DNA from: Isoptericola sp. | GTDB lineage: Bacteria > Actinomycetota > Actinomycetes > Actinomycetales > Cellulomonadaceae | Assembly: GCA_031180595.1 (NCBI GenBank) | Contig: JAPSLQ010000005.1 | Span: 1-47,114 of the forward strand | Reading direction: 5' to 3' | DNA length: 47,114 nt | In this document: one piece after another, positions 3 through 41,400 of the stretch | How the letters are laid out: every line of letters starts with the position of its first letter | Position numbering within the stretch: the stretch's first letter is position 1 | Translations under genes and position numbers: made by a program | Notes under the pieces: model-generated | Told to the model about the DNA's origin: nothing | Seen by the model: the letters and a program-made list of their open reading frames with translations, nothing else | Databases searched by the model: none

Positions 3-785
3 CTACGACGTCGGCTGCCGCGGCCGGACGACCAGGCTCTGGGAGATCGTCCCGATCGGCCCGTGCTCGTCGTGGAGCACGGTGCTCGTCAGCCCGACAC
101 CGGCCGGCCCGAACGACACGCTCGTGTCGAACCCGAGCCACTCGCTCTCGGGGAGCCGGTACAGGTGCGCGCCGAGGTCGAGGTTGGGGAAGGTGACCTC
201 GCGCGGGTCCCGGCGCACGGTCAGCCCGTTGGCGACGTCGAACAACCCGGCCGCACGCGCGAGCGAGCTGACCTTCTCGTCCTCGACGAGCGGCATGTCG
301 GTGCGGAGCCACGCCGTCGCACGGCCGGGCTCGGCCTGGGCACGGCGCGCCTCCACCGTCGTGATGAAGCCGCCCGGCCAGTCCTTCGTGAGGTCCACCG
401 GCGGCGTCCGGTCGGGGGTCTGGATCCGGGGCAGCGGGTCGGCGGCGAGCGCCGCCGTGTCGCCCGGGCGCGCGAGCCAGGCGCGCAGCGTGACGGCGCG
501 GCGCCCGCCGCACGACACCGCCGCCTCGACCAGCTCCACGCCCTTGCCCGGGCGGACGAGCTGCACCTCGGTGTGCATGGTCTCCAGCCGGTACGTTCCC
601 CAGATGTCGTAGGACAACCGCGTCACGACGAGGTCGTCCCGGCCACGCTCGTCGCGGTCCGTCTCGACCAGGTGCGCGAGCAGGCCGAGCGTCGGTGCGA
701 CGTGCTGCTCGTCGGTCCTCCAGGCGCCCGAGACGTGCTCGGTGGGTTCGAACGTCGTCGGGCCGGTGCGGCGGAAGTAGGCCAT
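3..785 (-). CDS. thioesterase-like (acyl-CoA thioesterase fold) family protein
   Basis: About 260 residues with the two-half layout of TesB-like/4HBT_3 double-hotdog proteins; it opens MAYFRRTG and ends RPRQPTS. This family hydrolyses or binds acyl-CoA in the cytoplasm, but the substrate cannot be read from the sequence. I place the start at the ATG at 785 because GAGGAGA lies a few bases upstream; an in-frame ATG at 800 adds five residues but lacks such a site. The stop lies right at the window edge, so the gene is complete. It is the first coding sequence downstream of the leader-peptide/hairpin element at 911-1106 on the same strand and may be its target. Family call moderately sure, function unknown. 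Confidence 0.7.
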   Translation of the reverse strand: MAYFRRTGPTTFEPTEHVSGAWRTDEQHVAPTLGLLAHLVETDRDERGRDDLVVTRLSYDIWGTYRLETMHTEVQLVRPGKGVELVEAAVSCGGRRAVTLRAWLARPGDTAALAADPLPRIQTPDRTPPVDLTKDWPGGFITTVEARRAQAEPGRATAWLRTDMPLVEDEKVSSLARAAGLFDVANGLTVRRDPREVTFPNLDLGAHLYRLPESEWLGFDTSVSFGPAGVGLTSTVLHDEHGPIGTISQSLVVRPRQPTS

Positions 786-914
786 GGCTCTCCTCGTCAT
801 GTCCGTGGGTGGTGGACGCTCCGATGTCTACCAGGATCCACCGTCCGCCCGCGTGTGAGGCGGTGCGGGTCGCGGCCGGGATGCGGCGTTTTGGAGGGGG
901 ACGAGGGCATGAAA

Positions 915-979
915 GAGCCCGCGGGCTGCAGGGTGACTCCTGCTGCCGTGCTGGACGAGGGCACGGCACCCGCGGGCTC
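915..979 (-). terminator. long branched hairpin, candidate attenuator
   Basis: On the minus strand GAGCCCGCGGG (979-969) pairs perfectly with CCCGCGGGCTC (925-915), followed by TTTC. Inside the 11-bp stem lie two smaller hairpins, TGCCGTGC/GCACGGCA and GCAGG/CCTGC, giving a three-way-junction shape. It sits about 70 nt downstream of the 12-codon leader ORF and about 130 nt before the thioesterase-like gene, the position expected of an attenuation terminator. The U-run is short, as is usual in high-GC actinomycetes. Confidence 0.6.
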
Positions 980-1046
980 CGGTGGTCACGTGGGAATCGC
1001 AACCGGTCCACGCGCCTGGTGGCGCGAAGTCAGTCAGACGCGCGAC

Positions 1047-1085
1047 CTAGCGCGCGACCACCTCATGGGTCCGAAGAGTCTTCAC
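1047..1085 (-). CDS. 12-codon leader peptide ORF (MKTLRTHEVVAR)
   Basis: A GTG at 1085 opens a 12-codon frame that ends in TAG at 1047. Five bases upstream lies AGAAGGGAGGTGATCC (1106-1091), which complements the last 16 bases of actinobacterial 16S rRNA with a single departure. So strong a ribosome-binding site in front of so short a frame, followed by a branched hairpin at 979-915, is the usual anatomy of ribosome-mediated attenuation. The codons for HEVVAR could pair with downstream CGCGCCACC, an alternative fold that a stalled ribosome would change. The peptide shows no run of a single amino acid, so the sensed signal is not obvious; an antibiotic or general translation stress is possible. 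I do not recognise the peptide. Expression is inferred. Confidence 0.6.
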   Translation of the reverse strand: MKTLRTHEVVAR

Positions 1086-1156
1086 TGCTCGGATCACCTC
1101 CCTTCTCATGTGCGAACGACGGTACGCCCGCACGCCGGGGAGACGCCAGAGTATTT

Positions 1157-20947: not shown

Positions 20948-21069
20948 ACGGTGGGGGCACCCCGCGTGCCTGCCCCCGGTGCGCGGGGTGTACCCATGTC
21001 CGGACGGTCGTCGGCTCCCGCGCCGGCGGGCGGGTAGGATCCACCTCACAACGCAACACGCCGCTCGAA

Positions 21070-21285
21070 CCGCGACGGGAGAGTCCGGCGGACCTGGCAG
21101 CAGGGCCGTCGGCGCCGAAGGAGCAAGCCCCTCCCCGGGAATCTCTCAGGCCCCCGTACCGTCGTGGCGAGGCAACTCTGGAAAGTGGCCCGTCCGTCGT
21201 CGCCCGACGCCGGCCTGGCCCACCGACGGTGCAAGTCGGCGCGCCCCGTCCAGGCGGACCGACAAATCTCTCAGGTCGACGTGCG
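21070..21285 (+). ncRNA. tandem glycine riboswitch (gcvT motif)
   Basis: Two consecutive glycine aptamers. The first has GCGACGG (21072) closing with CCGTCGT (21159) and contains GGGAGAGTCC, GCCGAAGGAGCAAG and AATCTCTCAGG. A short linker follows, then the second with GAGGCAACTCTGGAAAGTGG, ACCGACGGTGCAAG and AAATCTCTCAGG. These are the conserved cores of the glycine riboswitch. A probable promoter with -10 TAGGAT lies at about 21034. The ~95-nt space before gcvP presumably forms the expression platform. Glycine binding usually switches the glycine cleavage operon on. Confidence 0.95.
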
Positions 21286-41290: not shown

Positions 41291-41400
41291 ACTCCATCGG
41301 ACCTGGCGTGAGCACCTTCGTCCTCGGGAGGCTTCCGTCGGAGAACGGGTTGCTGCGGCGTCGTCGAGCCAGGACTCTCGGCCGCTCTGGATGGCTTGGG
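41291..41400 (-). ncRNA. SAM riboswitch (S-box/SAM-IV-like) before metF
   Basis: On the minus strand: CCATC (394-390) closes with GATGG near the end (P1); GCGGC (385-381) with GCCGC (359-355) form P2; then GCAACC pairs with GGTGC (the P3 core) followed by CACGCCAGG. The order GCGGCCGAGAG, CGACGACGCCGCAGCAACC, GGTGCTCAC is the conserved core of S-box-type SAM aptamers; actinobacteria often carry the SAM-IV variant. A -10-like TACGAT lies just upstream (41410-41405). SAM binding should switch metF-metE off. Confidence 0.85.

Follow-up and report, generated by a model that had tools for sequence, protein, structure and literature searches.

The locus at the start of the window, the 47,114-nucleotide stretch of Isoptericola sp. 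DNA analyzed here (assembly GCA_031180595.1, contig JAPSLQ010000005.1), raises the question of why a cell should place an exceptional ribosome site in front of a frame of only 12 codons. The original prediction regarded the arrangement as a leader peptide with a branched attenuator that controls the thioesterase-like gene behind it. The individual parts are all present: the ORF with its GTG start, the ribosome site, the stem with two inner hairpins and the acyl-CoA thioesterase gene, which was identified by Pfam (4HBT_3C, plus 4HBT_3 barely over the cut-off). The whole, on the other hand, belongs to something already named. A search with cmscan matched the minus strand at 909-1111 to Rfam RF02471 (Ms_IGR-5), an actinobacterial RNA and an sRNA gene by Rfam type, over the full length of the model (1-184 of 184), with 68.8 bits against a curated gathering cut-off of 45 and an E value of 3e-13. 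The window element is a small free-standing RNA, already catalogued as an sRNA but without explanation. Its minimum-energy fold (-104.8 kcal/mol, z -4.3) was equalled by none of 200 shuffles, and a chance origin of the arrangement is excluded because RF02471 is conserved in relatives. The features are collected in Table 1.

Table 1. Features of the Ms_IGR-5 locus and of its neighbour in the window (positions are those of the whole stretch).
Feature	Position	Strand	Sequence or detail	Basis
Whole RNA	909..1111	minus	RF02471 Ms_IGR-5 member	cmscan
-10 element	1119..1124	minus	TACCGT; predicted RNA start ACA at 1111	promoter conservation
Extended Shine-Dalgarno (SD)	1091..1106	minus	AGAAGGGAGGTGATCC	15/16 bases complementary to 16S 3' tail
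P1 hairpin	1070..1093	minus	SD 3' part UCCGA (1093-1089) with UCGGA (1074-1070) of codons 4-6; start codon inside	minimum-energy fold
12-codon ORF	1047..1085	minus	MKTLRTHEVVAR, then stop	frame conservation
GGAC, codons 5-6	1069..1072	minus	can pair with SD end (P1) or GUCC loop 956-953 (kissing)	flanking-base covariation in two sets
GAGGTG inside ORF	1059..1064	minus	SD-like, nine bases ahead of stop	spacing kept in 56/57 Rfam-found loci
P2a 5' arm	1053..1062	minus	GGTGGTCGCG, codons 8-11	covariation
P2a 3' arm	981..990	minus	CGTGACCACC, directly ahead of terminator stem	covariation; ten pairs in window
Terminator stem, 5' side	969..979	minus	GAGCCCGCGGG	fold
Inner hairpin 1	945..967	minus	loop CCUCGUCCA, GUCC at 956-953	GUCC in 168/173 aligned loci
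Inner hairpin 2	928..943	minus		fold
Terminator stem, 3' side	915..925	minus	CCCGCGGGCTC, then UUUC	fold
Acyl-CoA thioesterase gene	6..785	minus	neighbour outside the system	Pfam PF20789, PF13622

The comparison was based on 177 loci, 57 of which were found with the Rfam model and 120 fetched with a pattern (at least 120 such stretches exist). This pattern demanded GGAGGTG, GGAC, GAGGTG and a TAG nine bases on. GGAGGTG and GAGGTG also served to orient the Rfam-found loci, and both were present in 57 of 57. At the -10 place, TANNNT occurred in 172 of 175 loci, 143 of which also had TTG at a spacer of 17-19, while four shifted control positions yielded 0-6 occurrences of TANNNT and none with TTG. 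The window itself has a -35-like CTGGCG at 1149-1144 with a spacer of 19, which is weaker. The RNA ends in a branched hairpin, whose 11-bp stem closes at 915 and is followed by a short U run. Such a conserved promoter together with an own terminator indicates, at the level of sequence comparison, an autonomous RNA of about 200 nt. Two further RNA elements lie elsewhere in the window, a glycine riboswitch aptamer (21066-21171, plus strand, 61.8 bits against 32) and a SAM riboswitch aptamer (41291-41397, minus strand, 53.7 bits against 44.4).

At E <= 0.001, RF02471 was detected in 45 of 58 relatives, representing 27 of 40 genera, and 40 of these matches exceed the cut-off. Of 298 genomes sampled across the phylum, 65 carry it, 42 of them with scores beyond the cut-off. 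Each positive genome has one match. A pattern consisting of the ribosome site, GGAC, GAGGTG, nine bases and a stop was found in 92 of 396 phylum genomes, including 52 outside the class; the reversed pattern gave none among the matches listed. A scan of named genomes yielded at least 120 pattern stretches. Among the 120 matches listed, judged by their record titles, 106 come from Actinomycetes, 5 from Acidimicrobiia, 2 from Thermoleophilia, 5 from unplaced Actinomycetota, and one each from an Acidobacteriota and a Spirochaetota metagenome-assembled genome (MAG). The last two may be binning errors. Against RF02471, the Spirochaetia MAG copy (L138) scores 29.4 bits, and the Acidobacteria MAG copy (L067), which adjoins two tRNA genes, 47.7 bits. 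The RF02471 cut-off was reached by 4 of 13 loci chosen from outside the class. The best reading is that the RNA is present in at least three actinobacterial classes. Its distribution is patchy: all eight listed genomes of one family (f19) of the same order gave no pattern match, possibly through loss. An origin of the element from a phage or plasmid was considered and ruled out, since viral contigs gave no pattern match and phages and plasmids gave no match covering 80% of the window element, only short pieces with E values of 0.02 or worse.

The ribosome site is the most conspicuous part of the RNA. As predicted, the bases at 1106-1091 on the minus strand are identical to the 16S-tail complement AGAAAGGAGGTGATCC in 15 of 16 places. 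In the 3.25-Mb assembly this is the sole place with at most one mismatch, and only one further place has two. No match came from the organism's own 16S gene, which is therefore apparently missing from this assembly. In the relatives, purines precede GGAGGTG, a motif that was itself demanded when the loci were picked. A scan of eight relatives with GRARGGAGGTGRTYC pointed in the same direction: outside 16S genes, the leader was the sole match in five (G001, G036, G090, G179, G255) and was joined by one more site in G207, and it was missed in G019 and G085, where both leaders deviate from the pattern. Of the other 16 sites in these genomes, 15 were 16S genes. The reversed control matched once, in G255.

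The short frame behind this site reads GTG AAG ACT CTT CGG ACC CAT GAG GTG GTC GCG CGC TAG in the window (1085-1047, minus strand), and its conservation in relatives, a point that the original prediction had put forward as a check, was borne out. The frame is exactly 12 codons long in 55 of the 57 Rfam-found loci; of the other two, one has 13 codons and one lacks a standard start. The start codon is GTG in 27, ATG in 15 and TTG in 14, and the stop, TAG in 51, TGA in 4 and TAA in 2, keeps its place. Between the ribosome site and GAG, 175 loci contain 2 in-frame stops in 1452 codons, vs 127 in 1551 and 249 in 1593 in the other frames. The same holds outside the class, where 49 of the 52 pattern matches were used (three duplicates or near-duplicates were left out): 1 in 528 codons, vs 24 in 503 and 50 in 520, and this single stop precedes the start. 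These outside-class frames are 13-17 codons long. Many begin with TTG or ATG, and some offer no start-like codon except ATC, ATT, CTG, ATA or ACG; one sequence of the 49 (G414) has no start-like codon in place. Near-cognate start codons behind an extended SD recall the AUU start of E. coli infC.

Whether the peptide itself is the product is a separate matter. It could be proposed that the locus is a gene for a functional micropeptide, because T6, E8 and V9 never change across 132 distinct 12-codon frames. The bases of these three residues are, however, also under RNA constraint. GAG GTG shows no synonymous change in any of these frames, so E and V never switch codon, and codon 6 varies at its third base alone, as is expected from a conserved threonine and equally from an RNA contact. 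Codon 5 may encode R, W or G, codons 2-4 are free, the first positions of codons 2-5 are as variable as the third, and the length changes outside the class. A functional micropeptide is therefore very improbable. The frame is almost free of stops while its residues vary wherever the RNA contacts allow, and it can therefore be concluded from sequence comparison that the reading frame is under selection and its translation kept, while the peptide residues seem to follow from the constraints on the RNA. The best reading of this pattern is that the act of translation, rather than the peptide product, would be selected.

What constrains the codons becomes apparent from the fold, which was studied in an alignment of 173 loci; two MAG copies from other phyla (L138, L067) and two loci with short 3' ends (L064, L171) were left out. 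The original prediction had the HEVVAR codons pairing with a downstream sequence. Pairing was supported for codons 8-11, and their conserved partner is CGTGACCACC at 990-981, not CGCGCCACC near 1020, which lies in a variable stretch. In this helix, P2a, within-family covariation is seen at every one of the six variable pairs (p <= 0.0015), and helices slid one place from it show no covariation in the same alignment. Its extension over codon 12 and the stop, P2b, has three outer pairs that covary within families; the core pairs of P2b either show no covariation or are unable to show any. In the predicted P1 hairpin, the core GUCC:GGAC is nearly invariant and one flanking pair covaries (stratified p 0.0015). 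Directly before the 3' arm of P2a lies GCGAAUNCC, a highly conserved internal-loop motif with no partner found in the aligned loci and possibly a protein site. In five loci outside the class (L184, L186, L190, L192, L194), a possible helix of GCUGGA in the P2 region with UCCAGC after the GUCC hairpin was seen by eye, as was a separate strong hairpin downstream.

The GGAC of codons 5-6 has a second candidate partner. In all but five of the aligned loci, the loop of the terminator's inner hairpin carries GUCC, with which GGAC could form a kissing contact. The base 3' of GGAC and the base 5' of GUCC form a Watson-Crick pair in 92 of 168 loci, where 79.9 +- 3.5 are expected after stratification by family (p 0.0008); with G-U allowed, the signal is weaker (104 of 168, p 0.011). 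In Streptomycetaceae and a further family (f21), 28 of 31 loci pair at this flank, by G:C, A:T or T:A. Within families, the aligned loci show no significant covariation at the other flank (p 0.17). Outside the class the roles are exchanged: the base before GGAC and the base after GUCC pair in 45 of 54 loci, with 40.0 +- 1.7 expected (p 0.0044), and no significant signal is left at the first flank (p 0.29). This test came after a bulk test and used a chosen GUCC, the first one 58-125 nt past the stop, which left 3 of 57 loci without a GUCC in range. The bulk test asked whether outside-class sequences can form a kissing contact of six perfect pairs; 20 of 46 could, which was not convincing, as the swapped control had a mean of 13.2, an sd of 2.1 and a maximum of 20. 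In the window the contact would comprise no more than four pairs, and among the 18 loci of the window's family, 5 form a Watson-Crick pair where the covariation lies. Each flank covaries in one of two separate sets, and the two sets together therefore support the proposed GGAC-GUCC kissing contact. Along with the codon helix, it counts among the features that sequence comparison, as opposed to experiment, shows.

With these contacts in hand, the idea of ribosome-mediated attenuation of the downstream thioesterase can be weighed. A same-strand thioesterase does follow the RNA in the window (L016) and in one more locus of the same genus (L018). In the other five of the seven loci from this genus (L019, L022, L024, L028, L029) the next gene is convergent, so the identity of the downstream gene changes even within the genus, and the prediction that leader and hairpin would be conserved upstream of the same gene failed. 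Neighbours were called in all 177 oriented loci by a purpose-written simple codon-position gene caller. The nearest downstream gene runs convergently in 100 of them and in the same direction in 64, and in 13 none was found; for the 57 Rfam-found loci alone, the counts were 29, 26 and 2. A conserved same-strand downstream gene, which membership among the attenuators would imply, is thus lacking. Neither control codons nor an arrest peptide are conserved, the residues being free where RNA contacts leave the bases free. The partner of the codon helix (981-990) lies beside, not within, the terminator stem (969-979), which it abuts without overlap, and therefore no antiterminator is visible in the folds examined. 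The actinobacterial attenuators trpL, leuL and ilvL, as treated in the consulted sections of PMC8079986, likewise have a short frame, and its translation is in competition with RNA helices. In contrast to them, Ms_IGR-5 has no conserved downstream gene, no control codons and no terminator-antiterminator overlap. Attenuation of the thioesterase is hardly credible on this evidence, and the RNA is very probably not a switch for its neighbour. From the proposed attenuation anatomy, the selected short frame, the exceptional ribosome site and the competition between ribosome and fold survive.

These surviving parts suggest that the RNA is a ribosome-responsive, two-state mini-mRNA or sRNA, which would most likely report on or buffer free 30S subunits or initiation capacity; a probability of roughly 0.55 is given to this reading. 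A 30S subunit would bind the RNA by pairing its 16S tail with up to 16 bases, and the bound RNA would be translated for 12 codons, from a start codon that is frequently weak in relatives. The closed fold would use the same codons: codons 8-11 would pair with the arm just ahead of the terminator, and GGAC would have two options, covering the ribosome site at its 3' end or kissing the GUCC loop in the terminator hairpin. A ribosome that occupies the frame would open these contacts, and their closing would exclude the ribosome, so that ribosome loading would set the two states of the RNA and may switch them in the cell. At the end of the frame, GAGGTG stands at SD distance while the stop codon is in the A site, and it may hold the ending ribosome. 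The output can be guessed to be RNA stability, action in trans or the holding of 30S subunits.

The last of these outputs could also be the entire function. As a 30S decoy, the RNA would exist to hold ribosomes by means of a maximal SD, a weak start, RNA structure that blocks the entry side and re-pairing of GAGGTG at the stop. The start codons agree with this, as TTG is used in 71 of 177 loci and the near-cognate codons stand alone in part of the outside-class sequences. So do the kept distance of nine bases between GAGGTG and the stop (56 of 57) and the leader itself, which is the best or near-sole 16S-complementary site outside rRNA genes where tested. A decoy would, however, require an abundance close to that of ribosomes, and by itself it leaves the covarying helix and the kissing contact unexplained. 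It is the main rival, but an unlikely one. Less likely still is a trans-acting base-pairing sRNA that carries the ORF incidentally, a dual-function RNA. The RNA does appear as an sRNA transcript in the S. avermitilis and S. lividans lists (in the pertinent sections of PMC8780764 and PMC8079986), and no partner was found for the conserved internal-loop motif; a translated ORF, as a dual-function RNA has, is indicated by frame conservation only. Against this stands the fact that 16S pairing or internal contacts explain much of the remaining conserved sequence.

In the sections consulted, Ms_IGR-5 is an RNA-seq-validated sRNA in S. lividans (PMC8079986), an sRNA unit in S. avermitilis (PMC8780764) and overlaps an annotated sRNA in M. 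smegmatis (PMC10454040). Ribosomal reads lie on its homologues in M. abscessus and M. smegmatis, according to the relevant part of PMC4974804; the same part states that a ribosome footprint is seen on most characterized ncRNAs of the species under discussion, and the footprint on Ms_IGR-5 is therefore not specific. The accounts of the RNA, in their consulted sections, do not mention the 16S complementarity, the 12-codon frame or the GGAC-GUCC contact. A search of the open-access literature by name, function and 16S complementarity, with most subscription journals outside its scope, found no functional account. For the S. coelicolor copy, the guessed name scr4389 found no support. Extended SDs are linked with non-canonical starts in infC, cvfC1 and ccpN of S. 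aureus, as described in the excerpted part of PMC13009471. Ms_IGR-5 shares this combination of an extended SD with a weak or non-canonical start; the S. aureus sites precede protein genes, whereas the frame behind the site in Ms_IGR-5 has 12-17 codons and lies on an RNA that stands alone.

A closer likeness is found in CC2171 (RF01867), an alphaproteobacterial sRNA. Its consensus carries GAAAGGAGGUGAUCCA within the first 25 bases, with an exact 16S-tail complement GAAAGGAGGUGAUCC near the start, followed by GUG and a short frame. Four plasmid-borne alphaproteobacterial copies (L266-L269) have the 16S complement exactly in one case and with one or two deviating bases in the other three, and their frames, counted from GTG, have 24, 26, 24 and 25 codons. 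By eye, the start of the ORF can pair with bases just before the terminator in these copies. These copies lie from position 1201 of their stretches, and the one in L268 follows hflX on the same strand. CC2171 differs in its middle, which does not align with Ms_IGR-5; it gave no match in the window at the gathering cut-off and none in 60 Actinomycetota genomes at E <= 0.001, and the outside-class locus L190 reached 28.5 bits against a cut-off of 75. In the sections consulted, CC2171 appears as a table row in the Rfam 15 paper (PMC11701678) and in a Mesorhizobium list (PMC5596092), while the Caulobacter Ribo-seq study describes intergenic ncRNAs as untranslated bar two exceptions and does not name CC2171 there (PMC4117421). 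To judge from the sequences, the two RNAs appear similar in plan, as kin or in parallel.

The ribosome-responsive reading may be carried one step further, to an RNA class with the ribosome as its ligand. One and the same GUCC in the ribosome site would be contested by the 16S tail and by GGAC, and therefore 30S binding would free GGAC for the terminator loop. In such a class, the 16S tail would displace GGAC from the ribosome site, GGAC would then kiss the terminator loop, and the RNA would read free 30S subunits or, through its weak and near-cognate starts, initiation fidelity; the same plan would have arisen or survived in CC2171. This extension is tentative and rather doubtful at present.

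Ms_IGR-5 occurs in Mycobacterium, Streptomyces, Cellulomonas and many further genera, bacteria of medical and industrial weight, and stands in the databases as an unexplained sRNA. With a selected frame behind the best 16S-complementary site of the window's assembly, and with ribosome and fold in apparent competition for the same bases, it becomes a testable candidate for an RNA that may sense or hold ribosomes in these organisms.
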